Positions 40,563 through 58,617 of a DNA stretch of 64,000 bases are shown one piece after another. The notes under the pieces are model-generated. The model was not told the DNA's origin, did not search any database, and worked only from the letters and a program-made list of their open reading frames with translations. Positions within the stretch are counted from its first letter, which is position 1. The number at the start of each line of letters is the position of its first letter. Source of the stretch: Erysipelothrix piscisicarius (GTDB taxonomy: Bacteria > Bacillota_I > Bacilli_A > Erysipelotrichales > Erysipelotrichaceae); contig NZ_CP034234.1 of NCBI RefSeq assembly GCF_003931795.1, positions 1,550,001-1,614,000 on the forward strand. Direction: 5' to 3'. The position numbers were made by a program, and so were the translations under genes.

Positions 40563-40586
40563 TTAAAAAAGGCATTTCTGCCTTAA
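40563..40586 (-). terminator. Intrinsic terminator of the TrpXYZ-like operon
   Basis: On the minus strand TTAAGGCA GAAA TGCCTTTTTTAA. The stop codon of the ATPase gene lies in the stem. Confidence 0.8.
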
Positions 40587-41362
40587 AGTGTTTCAATATA
40601 AGCATCATCATAAGACGCAAACATTTCTAACAAATCTTTTTTTGTGAGGTGCTCCTTTTCGGGATGAGCGATATCACGAATTATATTTCCATTGTGAAAC
40701 ATCAATAAACGCGATCCATAATCAAGTGCGTGCTGTAAATTATGCGTCACCATGATTGTCGTAATGTTTCGTTCAGCAACCATATTTTGCGTGAGTTTTA
40801 TAATCGACTCTGAACTTTTCGGATCTAAAGCAGCGGTGTGCTCGTCAAGTAATAAAAGATCTGGATTATTCATCAATGCCATCAACAAGGACAGTGCTTG
40901 TCGCTGTCCACCTGAAAGTTGACCCACTTTCACATGAAGCTTATCTTCAAGTCCGAGATTCAATGATCTCAATAAATTGACAAACTCTGCTTCATGTTTA
41001 TGATTGATTGCTTTCGTTAAACTCATAAGTTTTCCTTTATTCGAGGCAAGCGATAGATTTTCTAAAACTGTGAGCGAAGGTGACGTTCCAGCCATCGGAT
41101 CTTGGTAAACCCGAGAAATGGTCTTAAAGCGCTGATGATTTTTCATTTTTAAAAGGTCACGATTTCCAAATGTTAAGGTGCCTTTATCAGGATTAATTTG
41201 GCCACAAATTAAGTTTAATAATGTAGATTTACCACTTCCATTCGAACCAATTATCGTGATAAACTCCCCCTTCTCAACACTTAAATTTAAATTATGATAA
41301 AGCGTTGTTTCCATTGGGGTACTTTGGTTGAATGTTTTTGTTATTTTATTGAGTTGTAACAT
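40583..41362 (-). CDS. ABC transporter ATP-binding protein of a TrpXYZ-like importer
   Basis: 259 residues. Walker A IIGSNGSGKST, Q-loop VYQDPMAGTSPSLTV, signature GQLSGGQRQALS, Walker B LLLLDEHTAALDP, H-loop MVTHNLQHAL. The DEHTAALDP form with Gln-rich signature is typical of the ATPase of the COG2984/COG4120/COG1101 importer group (tryptophan/tyrosine transporters of streptococci). The start at 41362 has AAGGAG upstream. It overlaps the permease gene by 17 bp, so it is the last gene of a binding protein, permease, ATPase operon. Confidence 0.88.
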   Translation of the reverse strand: MLQLNKITKTFNQSTPMETTLYHNLNLSVEKGEFITIIGSNGSGKSTLLNLICGQINPDKGTLTFGNRDLLKMKNHQRFKTISRVYQDPMAGTSPSLTVLENLSLASNKGKLMSLTKAINHKHEAEFVNLLRSLNLGLEDKLHVKVGQLSGGQRQALSLLMALMNNPDLLLLDEHTAALDPKSSESIIKLTQNMVAERNITTIMVTHNLQHALDYGSRLLMFHNGNIIRDIAHPEKEHLTKKDLLEMFASYDDAYIETL

Positions 41363-42272
41363 CGTGTTTCTCCTTTGCATTTTTCCATTTTGGAAGCCTA
41401 ATTTTATTCAACATTATTGCACTAATAAAGATCACAACTGTGATGAGTTTCATAAACTGAGCATCAATTCCCATTCGAATTGCAAGTGCTACAATCAAGC
41501 GGTATACAATCGCACCAAAGATAACCATGGTGGTCGATTTCAATTTTATTCGCCCCAAGATTGTCGTACCTAAGATAACGGACGAAAGCCCTAAAACCAC
41601 CATACCTGTCCCTAATGAAATATCAAAATATTTATTCACCGAAACTGCCAAACCACCACTGAAAGCGACGATTGCGTTTGCCAATGCCAAGCCAAAAATT
41701 TTCACAAGTCCAACATTGTGGCCCAATGTGGTCACAAGTTGCTCATTATCTCCCGTTACTTTAAGTAAGTAACCTGTTTTAGTCGTGAGAAGTTGATCAA
41801 TAATTACTTTGATGCCTAAAACGAGAATAACCATTACAATTAATTGGAAATTATTAATTAAAAACGGAGGTGCACCGAGTTTTTCCAACCATTGAGTTGA
41901 GAAGATGGTTTCAAATTTAAAAAGGGGAATGTTGGGTTTCCCTCCAGCAACTACAAGATTTATAGAATAAAGTCCCGTCATCACTAATATACCACTGAGT
42001 AGTGAGGAAATTCCAAATTTAACATGGAATAAACCAGTAACAATTCCGGCCGTTGCACCCGCTATGGTTGATATTAAAAGAGCCATCCATGGATTCAGGC
42101 CATTAAGAATCAAGATTGCACTCACCGCTGCACCTAATGGATACGTTCCGTCCACCGATAAGTCCGGGATATCCAAAATTTTATAAGAAATAAGAACTCC
42201 CATGGACAAAATACCATATAGAAATCCTTGAATTAAAATATCAGAAATAAACGTTGAGTTTAGAACACCCAT
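41346..42272 (-). CDS. ABC permease of a TrpXYZ-like importer
   Basis: 308 residues with about eight or nine membrane helices. ISYKILDIPDLSVDGTYPLG near residue 30 is the hallmark of the COG4120 permease family. It shares base 42272 with the stop of the binding-protein gene, so translation is coupled. Importers of this group bring in aromatic amino acids in streptococci. The leader upstream of the operon agrees with that. Confidence 0.88.
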   Translation of the reverse strand: MGVLNSTFISDILIQGFLYGILSMGVLISYKILDIPDLSVDGTYPLGAAVSAILILNGLNPWMALLISTIAGATAGIVTGLFHVKFGISSLLSGILVMTGLYSINLVVAGGKPNIPLFKFETIFSTQWLEKLGAPPFLINNFQLIVMVILVLGIKVIIDQLLTTKTGYLLKVTGDNEQLVTTLGHNVGLVKIFGLALANAIVAFSGGLAVSVNKYFDISLGTGMVVLGLSSVILGTTILGRIKLKSTTMVIFGAIVYRLIVALAIRMGIDAQFMKLITVVIFISAIMLNKIRLPKWKNAKEKHDVTTQ

Positions 42273-43228
42273 TATTGATTTACCGCCCTTTCACGTATCG
42301 AATCAGGTATCTGAATACCCAATTTTGATGCTACAGCCTCACTAACATACAACTTCGTTTCCTCAGAACCATAAACAGGGAGTGATGCAATGGTCACGTT
42401 ATTTACCAAAATTTCATAAGCCATCGCCCCTGCTTTTTCACCAAGATGTTTATAACTTACAGATTCTGAAGCTAAAACACCTTGATCAAACTGCCCAACC
42501 TCAGCCATAAAGACTGGTTTGTTTACACTATTAGCAGTGTCAACAACTAATCCAGTAGCCGAAGCAATCATATTGTCATTGACGATATAAATCACATCGG
42601 TTTCTTGAACTAATTGTTGTGCAGCAATTGCGATTTCATTCGCTTGACTTACACCTTTTTCATTGACCTTCATACCTAATTTAGCGGCAATGTTTCGCAC
42701 CTCATCAATTTGGTTTCTACTATTAATTTCGCTCGTATTGTATAATATCCCAATATTTTTGGCATTTGGCATTATTTCTTGAATCAACGCTACTTGTGTA
42801 TCCAATGGGGGTAAGTCACTGACGCCCGTTAAGTTTCCACTTGGGTGAGCGAGATCATCCACCAATCCTGCCTGTTTCGCATCCGATACCGCGCTAAAAA
42901 TCACAGGGATATCGGTGCCGTCTACCGCATTCATAGCGGCTTGAGCAGCTGGAGTTGCAATTACAAAAATTAAATCAACAGCATCTCGTACAAATTGATT
43001 TGCGATAAGGTTGGCCGTCCCAACATCTTCATTCGCATTTTTCACTTCTAAAGAAACTTTCTCTGTTAACCCAGTAGCATCCAACCCCATCTTAAATCCA
43101 TCCAAAGAATCCGAAAGTGCCGGATGTTCCGCCCACTGTATCACACCAATTCTAATTTCATTTTGTTCACCACTCATACATCCCGTAAGCAGCACTGCAC
43201 TTATTATGATCATTAATACTTTTTTCAT
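42272..43228 (-). CDS. ABC substrate-binding lipoprotein of a TrpXYZ-like importer
   Basis: 318 residues. Lipoprotein signal MKKVLMIIISAVLLTGCMSG, then a two-lobed periplasmic-binding-protein fold of the ABC_sub_bind family (COG2984). IRIGVIQWAEHPALSDSLDG and FSAVSDAKQAGLVDDL are typical. The start at 43228 has GGAGGAG upstream. It is first in its operon, behind a leader-peptide attenuator with Trp and Tyr codons, so the likely ligand is an aromatic amino acid, mainly tyrosine or tryptophan. A broken paralogue lies directly upstream. Confidence 0.9.
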   Translation of the reverse strand: MKKVLMIIISAVLLTGCMSGEQNEIRIGVIQWAEHPALSDSLDGFKMGLDATGLTEKVSLEVKNANEDVGTANLIANQFVRDAVDLIFVIATPAAQAAMNAVDGTDIPVIFSAVSDAKQAGLVDDLAHPSGNLTGVSDLPPLDTQVALIQEIMPNAKNIGILYNTSEINSRNQIDEVRNIAAKLGMKVNEKGVSQANEIAIAAQQLVQETDVIYIVNDNMIASATGLVVDTANSVNKPVFMAEVGQFDQGVLASESVSYKHLGEKAGAMAYEILVNNVTIASLPVYGSEETKLYVSEAVASKLGIQIPDSIRERAVNQ

Positions 43229-43250: not shown

Positions 43251-43283
43251 AAAAAAGCCATGTACATAAATCTACACGGCTTT
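43251..43283 (-). terminator. Attenuator terminator (3:4 hairpin) of the TrpXYZ-like operon
   Basis: On the minus strand, AAAGCCGTGTA (segment 3) pairs with TACATGGCTTT (segment 4) over 11 bp with one wobble, followed by TTTTTT. It ends 23 bases before the binding-protein start, so it must be bypassed for expression. Confidence 0.85.
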
Positions 43284-43393
43284 GTTAAAATGGTATTAGA
43301 TTAATGGGAGCCTGTAGATTTTAGTAACACAAAACAGCTAATATCCACACGGCATATTAACTGATTAACTAAAATAATAATAGCAGCTCCATT
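43268..43393 (-). promoter_or_regulatory. Attenuator segments 1 to 3 upstream of the TrpXYZ-like operon
   Basis: Segment 1 (43365-43393) covers the Trp/Tyr codons of the leader ORF. Segment 2 (43303-43327) can pair with it: TTTTAGT(T)AA with TTACTAAAA, and AATGG-AGC with GCTCCCATT. Segment 2 can instead pair with segment 3: AAATCTACAGGCT with AGCCGTGTAGATTT, one bulge. A separate 10-bp hairpin (43335-43363) lies between 1 and 2. The pairings are mutually exclusive. Stalling on aromatic codons would expose segment 2, form 2:3 and prevent the terminator. Confidence 0.75.
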
Positions 43394-43427
43394 GTTGGGC
43401 TTGATTGATTTTACTTATATTGTTCAT
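43365..43427 (-). CDS. Leader peptide with Trp and Tyr control codons
   Basis: 20 codons beginning MNNISKINQA and ending QQWSCYYYFS. AAAGG lies 12 bases upstream of the ATG. The end holds TGG, then TGC, three consecutive TAT and TTT, so all three aromatic amino acids appear within seven codons. The stop is at 43365-43367, directly before the first hairpin. A weak promoter (TTGCAT-17-TATGGT on the minus strand, ending near 43450) fits transcription starting just upstream. The paralogous leader upstream has a similar start region (AAAGGTTGG, then ATG). Confidence 0.7.
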   Translation of the reverse strand: MNNISKINQAQQWSCYYYFS

Positions 43428-43528
43428 TGGAATACCCAACCTTTCTTAGCAACCATAACACTGATATTTTTGAGATGCAAGTAGTTTTTTCATATTTATT
43501 CATTTCTTACAGAATGATGAATATTGTT

Positions 43529-44482
43529 TCATTTTAGCTCATTTCGATTTTCAAGGTCAGATGGAATTTCTATTCCAAACTGACTAGCGACCTTTTTATT
43601 TATAAATAATTTTGTCTTGTTTGACGTTAAAACCGGCAACTTATTCAGATCGCTTTTCTCCACAAGAATTTGATATATTAATTCTGCTGCATGCTCGCCA
43701 AGGTTATCGTAACTCAAGGATTCAGTAGCTAGAATCCCTTCGTTGATTTGTCCATCTTCTGATGCAAATACAGGTACGTCGTATTTTGACGCAATATCTA
43801 CAATGTTCGCAGTTGAAGCCACAACCATATTATCCGTTATATTAAAAATAACATCGACTTTTTCGGCTAATTGTTGAGTTGCAATCGGTAATTACTGCAT
43901 GTTTGTTATTCCAACCGCAACCACTTCGAGTTCTTTCTCTAACGAGGAAATCACCTCAACTTGCGTTATGGAATTAATTTCACCCATGTTGTAAACAATT
44001 CCCATCCGTTTCGCTCGAGGTAAAAGCATCTTTATCAACGCTAATTGTTCTTCAATAGGTGCTTGATCACTAACCCCTGTGACTGATGATCCTGGATAAT
44101 CCATAGAATCGACCAGGCCTGCCGCAACCGGATCGGTAACGGCATTAAATACAACCGGAATACTTGTACCTTCTGTCGCATTTTTCGCACTTTGGGCCGA
44201 GTTTGTTCCAATGGCATATATCAAATCAACGTGTTGCGATACAAACCCATGAGCCATTAATTCATTATTGCTATTTTCACCCTGTGCATTTTGATAGATA
44301 ATACGATAATGCTCCGACCCTATCGTCTTATCAAGGGCTTCTTTCATCCCTTCATACGTCGCATCCAAGGAAGGATGATCCGCAAACTGTAAAACACCAA
44401 TCGTATATAATTTTTCTGGATTTGCATTCACACACCCACTTAATAAAACTAAAAGCATACAGATAATCATCGATTTTTTCAT
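43529..44482 (-). pseudogene. Second TrpX-like binding lipoprotein, interrupted by an in-frame TAA
   Basis: Paralogue of the binding protein at 42272-43228, with the same length (317 codons) and the same order of motifs: IGVLQFADHPSLDATYEG, FNAVTDPVAAGLVDS, GVSDQAPIEEQLALI. The lipobox is LLSGC. It starts at 44482 behind AGGAGG. The codon at 43894-43892 is TAA: GITNMQ-stop-LPIATQQLAEKVD, in frame on both sides. GAA to TAA would explain it. It has its own attenuator leader but no permease or ATPase of its own. It probably shared those downstream, giving a second specificity that is now lost. Confidence 0.9.
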
Positions 44483-44499: not shown

Positions 44500-44525
44500 A
44501 AAAAAAGCTGAGAATGCAGCTTTTT
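44500..44525 (-). terminator. Attenuator terminator of the second binding-protein gene
   Basis: On the minus strand AAAAAGCTG pairs with CAGCTTTTT around CATTCT, followed by more T. The alternative antiterminator is GAATGTAGCT (44545-44536) with AGCTGCATTC (44521-44512), 10 bp with one wobble. Confidence 0.8.
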
Positions 44526-44563
44526 AAAGGTATTCAGCTACATTCTACTAACCAAGACTAAAG

Positions 44564-44590
44564 GGTTAATATCGTGTAGCGATATTAACC
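44564..44590 (-). promoter_or_regulatory. Leader hairpin of the second attenuator
   Basis: GGTTAATATCG and CGATATTAACC form a perfect 11-bp stem around five bases, immediately after the leader stop codon. A stem of similar sequence (GTTAATAT) lies at the same place in the other leader. Confidence 0.75.
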
Positions 44591-44591
44591 T

Positions 44592-44642
44592 TTACCTAAA
44601 GTTAAAGAAAGTGCTGTTTTGTTTATGATTTGCGTTGGTCAT
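44592..44642 (-). CDS. Leader peptide with Phe codons
   Basis: 16 codons, MTNANHKQNSTFFNFR, with AAAGG ten bases upstream of the ATG. Three of the last five codons are Phe (TTC TTT AAC TTT), which suggests phenylalanine sensing. The position before a hairpin, an antiterminator and a terminator matches the other leader, but pairing of the Phe codons with the antiterminator is not obvious. The downstream gene is broken, so the leader may be decaying too. Confidence 0.5.
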   Translation of the reverse strand: MTNANHKQNSTFFNFR

Positions 44643-46618: not shown

Positions 46619-47462
46619 TTAGGATGAAGTTAACCGATAATTTACGGGAGATTGATATCCTAGCTTTTCTTGTATTCGATTTTCATTGTAATATTTTAAA
46701 TAGTTTATCACAGTTTGTGATACAATTTCAGTAGAACCCTTTAGTTCTGGGTTTAATTCGAATGTTTCACACTTTAGCGAGGCATGAAACGATTCGATAG
46801 GAGCATTATCAGCGGGTGTACCCTTACGGGACATACTCATGGTAATGCTTTTATTTTTTACTTTGAGTTGATACTCTTTTGATGTATAGACACTCCCTTG
46901 ATCAGAATGAAGAATACATGGCTGAACGATATCCGGAAGTTGATTTAATGTATCAACCACACATTCTAGGTTTTGTCTGTCACTCAATGTAGACGCAATA
47001 ATCTCACCATTATATAAATCCATGATCGTAGATAAATAGAGCATCTTATGGCCATAAGGGATGTAAGTGATATCTGTCACCAATTTCTCTAGAGGACGTA
47101 GTGATTTAAAGTCGCGATTAATGATATTGGGCATAATGATCTTCGGATTTTGTTTTCGATACCGTTTGACCTTAACACGGCATTGACATTGGTGTTTCTG
47201 CATTATCTTTTGAACAGTGTTCTTATTGATAATTCTTTCTTTCGAATTAATGCAGTTATTTTCGATATCCATAACGAAATTTATTTTCTTTACAAAGTTC
47301 AATTACTAATCCTTCATTGACAGAATAATTATTAGACTCTAGTTGCTCTTTTAGTCCAACGGTAATACGTTGACTTAGGTACCCCAAAAGATTCAAGATA
47401 TCTTTAAGAGATACAGTGTTGCGATACTCTTCAACGAGCTTGATGATTATTTCAGGAACCAC
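46619..47462 (-). pseudogene. IS3-family transposase OrfB, copy 1, frameshifted
   Basis: DDE integrase-type transposase. The catalytic residues are in LVTDITYIPYG, HSDQGSVYTS and APIESFHASLK. The frame is broken near 47256-47264: FRYGYRK is followed by a stop, whereas one more A in the run would give the expected RKITALINSKERI. Two further compensating indels distort the segment after SLKDILNLLG compared with copy 2. OrfB would normally be made by -1 frameshifting from orfA at AAAAAAG (47489-47483). Confidence 0.85.
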
Positions 47463-47764
47463 ATCCTTTCTCTTTCCAAATACTTTTTTAATAGTTCAAT
47501 TTGTTGCTCCAAAGATTTAATTCTAAGTCTTTGTGTTTCTTCGACCGTGTCTCCTTCAGGCCCTTTTCCAAAAGTATATTGCTTGCCTACAGGTTGAGAA
47601 AATCGATAGTGTTCACCATTTCGATACCATCTCCACCATGTTTTGACTTGTGTTACATTTTTTATTCCAAGTTCAGTCTGAATAAACCTGCTTGAGTAGC
47701 CTGCCAATTTCATTTCTATAACTTTCATCTTTGTCTCATAGCTATGCATAGTTCGTGTTCCCAT
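47447..47764 (-). CDS. IS3-family transposase OrfA, copy 1
   Basis: 105 residues. N-terminal helix-turn-helix (MKVIEMKLAGYSSRFIQTEL), then a C-terminal leucine-zipper-like coiled coil (RLRIKSLEQQIELLKKYLE). The slippery heptamer A AAA AAG in the last codons allows -1 frameshifting into orfB, as usual in this family. Copy 1 differs from copy 2 by Ser for Phe in HYRFSQPV. Confidence 0.88.
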   Translation of the reverse strand: MGTRTMHSYETKMKVIEMKLAGYSSRFIQTELGIKNVTQVKTWWRWYRNGEHYRFSQPVGKQYTFGKGPEGDTVEETQRLRIKSLEQQIELLKKYLERERMWFLK

Positions 47765-57767: not shown

Positions 57768-58617
57768 TTAGGATGAAGTTAACCGATAATTTACGGGAGA
57801 TTGATATCCTAGCTTTTCTTGTATTCTATTTTCATTGTAATATTTTAAATAGTTTATCACAGTTTGTGATACAATTTCAGTAGAACCCTTTAGTTCTGGG
57901 TTTAATTCGAATGTTTCACACTTTAGCGAGGCATGAAACGATTCGATAGGAGCATTATCAGCGGGTGTACCCTTACGGGACATACTCATGGTAATGCTTT
58001 TATTTTTTACTTTGAGTTGATACTCTTTTGATGTATAGACACTCCCTTGATCAGAATGAAGAATACATGGCTGAACGATATCCGGAAGTTGATTTAATGT
58101 ATCAACCACACATTCTAGGTTTTGTCTGTCACTCAATGTAGACGCAATAATCTCACCATTATATAAATCCATGATCGTAGATAAATAGAGCATCTTATGG
58201 CCATAAGGGATGTAAGTGATATCTGTCACCAATTTCTCTAGAGGACGTAGTGATTTAAAGTCGCGATTAATGATATTGGGCATAATGATCTTCGGATTTT
58301 TGTTTTTTCGATACCGTTTGACCTTAACACGGCATTGACATTGGTGTTTCTGCATTATCTTTTGAACAGTGTTCTTATTGATAATTCTTTCTTTCGAATT
58401 AATGCAGTTATTTTCGATATCCATAACGAAATTTATTTTCTTTACAAAGTTCAATTACTAATGCTTCATTGACAGAATAATTATTAGACTCTAGTTGCTC
58501 TTTTTTAGTCCAACGGTAATACGTTGACTTAGGTACCCCAAAAAGATGCAAGATATCTTTAAGAGATACAGTGTTGCGATACTCTTCAACGAGCTTGATG
58601 ATTATTTCAGGAACCAC
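57768..58617 (-). pseudogene. IS3-family transposase OrfB, copy 2, frameshifted
   Basis: Better preserved than copy 1: the helix-turn-helix segment reads LFGVPKSTYYRWTKKEQLE as expected. The DDE residues are in LVTDITYIPYG, HSDQGSVYTS and APIESFHASLK. The same one-base loss as in copy 1 (run of A near 58408-58415) separates FRYGYRK from the rest. With that base restored, one continuous orfB would follow the -1 slip at AAAAAAG (58644-58638). Confidence 0.85.

Follow-up and report, generated by a model that had tools for sequence, protein, structure and literature searches.

The window analysed here (64,000 nucleotides of the Erysipelothrix piscisicarius genome) carries an RNA leader ahead of an importer operon encoding a substrate-binding protein (SBP), a permease and an ATPase. 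We read this leader, with a probability of roughly 0.88, as a ribosome-mediated transcription attenuator that senses the charging of tRNA-Tyr (probably also of tRNA-Phe) and controls the operon. The parts of the element, their conservation, the covariation of their helices and the codon position at which the fold switches were established computationally. A first-pass annotation of the same DNA had proposed ribosome-mediated attenuation at this site, and that reading is supported by conservation of the leader ORF and by covariation of all of the pairings in relatives. The attenuator parts that it described are all found in the sequence, in place or immediately adjoining, on the minus strand (Table 1).

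Table 1. Features of the Tyr and Phe leaders and of the importer genes (positions in the window)
Feature	Positions	Strand	Remarks
Leader peptide ORF MNNISKINQAQQWSCYYYFS	43365..43427	minus	20 codons, read in the sequence
Shine-Dalgarno AGAAAGG of leader ORF	43440..43446	minus	Complement of 16S 3' end (CCUUUCU) present in the same window
Putative promoter-like hexamers TTGCAT-17 nt-TATGGT	43452..43480	minus	TG ahead of -10; by direct reading
Strand a (GGAGC)	43386..43390	minus	Within leader ORF, just 5' of the Tyr codons; partner a'; own-versus-swapped test
Segment S0 CAGTTAATAT	43354..43363	minus	Partner is the 3' part of S1; covariation
Segment S1 GCCGTGTGGATATTAGCTG	43335..43353	minus	43344-43335 pairs with S0; 43353-43338 pairs with S2
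Segment S2 CTAAAATCTACAGGC	43310..43324	minus	With S1, pre-emptor; with S3, antiterminator
Strand a' (GCTCC)	43307..43311	minus	Directly 3' of S2
Segment S3	43268..43283	minus	43276-43268 (TGTAGATTT) pairs with S2; 43283-43273 is the terminator 5' arm
Segment S4 and T6	43251..43264	minus	Terminator 3' arm 43264-43254; T6 43256-43251
SBP-C	42272..43228	minus	Substrate-binding lipoprotein, PF04392, TrpX-like
ABC permease	41346..42272	minus	PF02653
ABC ATPase	40583..41380	minus	PF00005
Phe-run leader peptide ORF MTNANHKQNSTFFNFR	44592..44642	minus	Leader of the upstream paralog SBP-A
Phe attenuator RNA	44502..44590	minus	S0:S1 hairpin 44590-44564, S2, terminator 44525-44502
SBP-A gene	43529..44482	minus	In-frame TAA 43894-43892

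The leader is approximately 200 nt long and begins with a conserved coding ORF. As the first-pass annotation had read it, this ORF ends in QQWSCYYYFS and has an AGAAAGG upstream; the control codons TAT TAT TAT TTT fill codons -5 to -2 counted from the stop, and the AAAGG ahead of the ATG is kept in relatives. The window holds one short ORF that combines a Shine-Dalgarno sequence, at least four aromatic codons among the last seven and a terminator behind it, against an average of 0.1 in 20 dinucleotide-shuffled versions of the window. The candidate promoter, which is absent from the list produced by a generic scan, has by-eye counterparts of similar kind at the same place, just 5' of the leader ORF, in relatives. 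Beside the Shine-Dalgarno sequence, GTTGGG (43440-43435, minus strand) can pair with CCCAAC (43399-43394) inside the ORF; the equivalent pairing in the Phe leader described below is GTTGGT:ACCAAC. These pairings possibly control re-initiation on the leader. The 16S rRNA copy in the window (3' end at approximately 38749, minus strand) reads GGGGATGGACCTCCTTTCT and so does not have the TCA of GGGGATGGATCACCTCCTTTCT, the form carried by the genome's two other matched 16S copies and by every matched copy from relatives. This loss beside the anti-Shine-Dalgarno sequence is either a sequencing error or a real variant.

An orthologue of SBP-C was found in 12 Erysipelothrix genomes (this one included), and all 12 have a leader ORF with a Tyr run before it (endings such as ...QQWSYYYYFS, ...QQMSNYYYFR, ...QQLSYYYS and ...GSFYYFYYR). 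Several further genera of the family also have Tyr-run leaders (...HQATYYYFIFS, ...HQAYYVYFYFR, ...TFSANYYYFYYS and ...VSSYYGYYH, among others). Throughout the 12 genomes and the other genera the ORF keeps its Tyr run while the RNA sequence drifts, and at the control codons the third position varies (TAT/TAC, TTT/TTC) with the residue constant. Tryptophan, which had been counted among the control residues, has to be dropped: the TGG codon of the Tyr leader is not kept among relatives, its position being W, G, M or L within the genus, and the conserved control codons are those for Tyr, with Phe secondary. Leader ORFs can also encode arrest peptides or sense small molecules, as in TnaC or ErmC, with the nascent peptide rather than codon-specific starvation stalling the ribosome, and inducible-stalling leaders of this sort are known for drug-resistance genes of Bacillota (PMC4191407, PMC10314930). 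We consider such a mechanism improbable here, given that the peptide outside the Tyr and Phe runs is not conserved across genera; the varying run length and the swap to Phe codons in a paralogous leader are what codon-specific sensing predicts.

The S3:S4 terminator (43283-43254), a hairpin of 11 bp with a folding energy of -14.1 kcal/mol, beats 200 of 200 shuffles and is followed by T6, so that an intrinsic terminator stands ahead of the structural gene, SBP-C. This agrees with the first-pass annotation, which had drawn segments 3 and 4 as a terminator followed by six T; its segment 3 (43281-43268) corresponds to strand S3, and the alternative pairing that it gave to segments 2 and 3 is the covarying S2:S3 helix. 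Its segment 2 (43327-43303) includes both S2 (43324-43310) and a' (43311-43307). The pairing of this segment with the control codons holds in the form of helix a:a', with the correction that the helix starts just 5' of the Tyr run. Missing from the earlier list was an additional 5' segment, S0 (43363-43354), which adds an S0:S1 hairpin.

Covariation was assessed by an own-versus-swapped test, in which the duplex energy of each helix formed from a leader's own strands is compared with that of strands exchanged between sequences (25 leaders); permutation of this kind removes shared ancestry only partly. With all 25 leaders pooled, a:a', S0:S1, S1:S2, S2:S3 and S3:S4 each gave 0 of 5000 permutations, and the control pairings S0:S2, a:S3 and S1:S3 gave no signal. 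When the test was run by group, S1:S2 within the Phe leaders was the sole non-significant case. Of the 40320 permutations possible for eight divergent Tyr leaders (identity 44-74%), which were tried exhaustively, 1 (a:a'), 36 (S0:S1), 22 (S1:S2), 207 (S2:S3) and 1 (S3:S4) were as good, compared with 39510 for S0:S2, 17593 for a:S3 and 31966 for S1:S3. Column counts from a MAFFT alignment support S0:S1 and S3:S4: 86% of their cells are paired, against at most 51% in slid controls, and 8 of the 17 pairs have changed on both sides. Because this alignment loses its register at a:a', that helix was judged by own-versus-swapped energies instead of column counts. Its sequence differs in nearly every clade while its position stays the same (GGAGC:GCTCC, TGAGC:GCTCA, GGGAAG:CTTCCC, GCGACC:GGTCGC, GTGTC:GACAC). 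Every proposed pairing covaries in relatives, and the antiterminator and terminator helices, which are mutually exclusive, are both kept by covariation. The first-pass annotation had stated that it would be contradicted if relatives lacked the leader ORF or the pairings 1:2 and 2:3; on inspection all of these are conserved.

The competing structures were folded thermodynamically up to the end of S3, short of S4, with an assumed ribosome footprint of -15 to +13 around the A-site held unpaired. In these calculations S0:S1 and S2:S3 form when the A-site is on the control codons, and S1:S2 takes over from both when it is on the last codon or the stop. For the MNNISKINQAQQWSCYYYFS leader, the expected number of S2:S3 pairs falls from 10.8 with the ribosome on the Tyr codon at -3 to 0.6 with the ribosome at the stop. 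Calculated S2:S3 pairing is higher with a stalled ribosome than with one at the stop in 24 of the 25 leaders. The mean switching point of the fold, between codons -3 and -2 relative to the stop, coincides with the end of the control codons, which lie mostly at -6 to -2 across leaders. The calculation thus gives, as an average over 25 leaders, two exclusive folds between which the position of the ribosome decides. Individual leaders depart from this average: six of the 25 largely keep S2:S3 with the ribosome at the stop, three do not form it at the stall codon tried and, for many, the transcript without a ribosome favours the antiterminator.

Since promoter-proximal terminators are common and the attenuator was read here from sequence and calculation, the hairpin might instead be a constitutive partial terminator beside a small ORF that is fortuitous or separately functional, with no regulated switch. 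Five covarying helices, some of them mutually exclusive, together with a fold switch located at the control codons and the recurrence of the arrangement with Phe codons and before aroB, make this very improbable. A third explanation, that the leader is a T-box riboswitch whose RNA senses uncharged tRNA directly with no ribosome, would fit the way in which aromatic genes are usually controlled in Bacillota. T-box motifs precede several related SBPs in the family, 12 T-box matches occur elsewhere in this genome (including before pheS and before a trpP-like transporter gene of the TrpP family), and trpX of S. suis is under T-box regulation (PMC9382623). At the leader site itself the T-box family (RF00230) was rejected, with no match at the Rfam gathering threshold or at a relaxed one, and the leader, at approximately 200 nt, opens with a conserved coding ORF; we regard this explanation as extremely improbable. 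Twenty more distant SBP loci, mostly from Clostridia, likewise gave no T-box match at gathering score. Given the 12 matches in the genome, leader-peptide control would be used here alongside T-boxes. No Rfam 15 family (Phe_leader, Trp_leader and His_leader included) matches the leader site at gathering score or at E-values up to 1. Elsewhere in the window, two matches of equal score to rli23, a Listeria antisense RNA, lie on the plus strand (46716-46815 and 57865-57964); the first is antisense to IS3-like transposase ORFs at 46619-47764.

The proposed model for control by ribosome-mediated attenuation, in which ribosome stalling, termination in vivo, the amino acid sensed and the role of a:a' are all presumed, is as follows. 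Transcription would begin just 5' of the leader ORF, with a ribosome trailing the polymerase. When Tyr-tRNA is scarce, the ribosome would stall on the Tyr codons, covering strand a and leaving S0 free; S0:S1 could then form, S2 would pair with S3, no terminator would arise and the importer would be transcribed. When Tyr-tRNA is plentiful, the ribosome would reach the stop codon and cover S0, so that S1 would capture S2, S3:S4 would form and transcription would end. Strand a should come out behind a ribosome that has reached the stop, and a:a' may help to lock the off state; once the ribosome is released, this helix is proposed to hold the region around S2 in its off conformation. Overall the architecture is his-like, with S0:S1 and S2:S3 as the on state and S1:S2 and S3:S4 as the off state.

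The genes behind the leader have the order SBP, permease, ATPase. They had earlier been assigned to the TrpXYZ type; the SBP is TrpX-like, but SBP-C scores 259 bits against the NCBIfam TrpX model NF041285, below its cut-off of 390 bits; SBP-C is related to TrpX and is not an assigned TrpX. The closest solved structure is that of CD0873, a tyrosine-binding SBP for which a pocket rule of Glu263 and Tyr279 has been described (PMC6816091). SBP-C carries both of these tyrosine-contacting residues (CD0873 numbering). The same pair is common to all three SBP paralog types of the genus, so that the rule does not discriminate between them, and pocket residues were rejected as proof of ligand for the paralogs with Phe and Trp leaders. 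No aroB homolog was found in this genome, an indication that the organism relies on importing its aromatic amino acids; many amino acid synthesis genes have been reported missing from E. rhusiopathiae (PMC9769512).

Upstream of SBP-C lies the paralog SBP-A, whose leader (MTNANHKQNSTFFNFR) has a run of Phe codons, often SFFFFFR in relatives. A covariance model built from Tyr leaders alone matches the Phe leaders (E-value: 3.4e-4 here, down to 2e-10 in relatives) and, judged from sequence, the Phe attenuator of SBP-A and the Tyr attenuator are homologous RNAs. SBP-A itself has one in-frame stop in this genome and is open in relatives of the same genus; its Phe attenuator is intact. Five Erysipelothrix genomes have a third paralog, SBP-B, between SBP-A and SBP-C, with a leader of a different type that contains one Trp codon (MYMKRWSNKRIEY, MMHNQRWSNKRIES, MMINKRWSNRRS, MIKTTTWSNSRIK). 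Four SBP-B upstream regions share a conserved single Trp codon with SN(K/R/S)R after it, together with a conserved hairpin, the 5' strand of which begins directly past the TGG; hairpin analysis of the SBP-B leaders identified no antiterminator. This leader is possibly a Trp-sensing element of different design. An SBP tree separates the proteins of the genus into one group for each leader type: Tyr (support 100/97), Trp (100/99) and Phe (79/77). The attenuator appears to have been duplicated along with the SBP gene and re-coded with Phe codons ahead of SBP-A.

In other genera, weaker matches to the Tyr-leader model sit ahead of aroB-aroC (with MKTVKYYYYYYFR and MIKLLQNSYFYFYFR as examples of their leaders), and the identity of AroB was confirmed for the gene behind such leaders. 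In a sample of 40 additional regions upstream of aroB from the family, approximately half contain a short ORF that finishes with a run of Tyr/Phe, and the aroB leaders have at least two different hairpin layouts. In two cases from other genera, a -10-like hexamer lies a few bases 5' of the leader ATG; such nearness suggests that the leader-peptide mRNA is leaderless in these two cases. When 395 genomes of the class were searched with the covariance model under strict filters, matches fell within the family only. Considered jointly, these observations lead us to favour, with moderate confidence, the following reading: Erysipelothrix would have one aromatic amino acid importer with two or three tandem SBP paralogs, each behind its own leader element (a Phe run for SBP-A, a single Trp codon for SBP-B in five genomes and a Tyr run for SBP-C). 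Among these elements, the Phe and Tyr attenuators would be homologous and re-coded after duplication, each SBP would be switched on solely by shortage of its own amino acid, and related Tyr/Phe attenuators would control aroB-aroC across the family.

Leader-peptide attenuators of the his, pheA and trp operons in E. coli and Salmonella combine an ORF rich in control codons with alternative hairpins and the logic of a stalled ribosome. The Erysipelothrix leader resembles his in its five-strand order (0:1 and 2:3 versus 1:2 and 3:4). It differs from all three proteobacterial systems in belonging to another phylum, having no Rfam leader match, controlling an importer SBP and using Tyr codons, and it alone has the extra helix a:a' that begins in the ORF before the control codons. 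The first-pass annotation had called leader-peptide control unusual in Firmicutes; unusual it is, but there are precedents for His, Leu and a Phe-codon uORF. Comparison-based predictions place His attenuators before his operons in Erysipelotrichales, the B. cereus group and Peptostreptococcaceae (PMC9413887), and likewise before hisS*/hisZ in Bacillus (PMC2965389). The Erysipelotrichales examples share both the device and the bacterial order with the present leader; the passages describing these attenuators concern His codons and his biosynthesis or hisS genes and do not mention aromatic leaders. The uORFC-13-1 motif before aroF in Acholeplasma, a low-GC Gram-positive relative, similarly joins an aromatic pathway gene to a uORF with at least one Phe codon beside a terminator; its genus, gene and consensus are different, and importers or Tyr runs are not described for it (PMC8632094). 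The Leu-rich attenuator peptide of S. aureus ilv-leu, which has genetic and reporter support, is likewise a case of leader-peptide attenuation in Bacillota but uses Leu/Ile codons for a biosynthetic operon (PMC5794164). The S. suis trpXYZ T-box controls a homologous importer in response to tRNA charging, but by direct tRNA binding and without a leader peptide (PMC9382623). A search of the open-licence PMC literature brought up no account of Tyr/Phe attenuators, either in Erysipelotrichaceae or ahead of an importer of this kind. Leader-peptide attenuation is thus already known, and the Tyr/Phe family in Erysipelotrichaceae is apparently undescribed in that literature.

This family adds a leader-peptide attenuator absent from Rfam 15 to the Bacillota, where T-box and TRAP control are thought to dominate aromatic amino acid genes, and carries a mode of regulation classically known from Gram-negative bacteria into a group in which it is rare. 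Control codons seem to have been swapped between duplicated attenuators together with the SBP paralogs, an unusual evolutionary feature, and the swapped attenuators form a natural series for testing the co-evolution of codon identity and RNA folds. The control codons also offer testable ligand predictions for SBPs with look-alike pockets, in bacteria that seemingly have to take up aromatic amino acids from outside.
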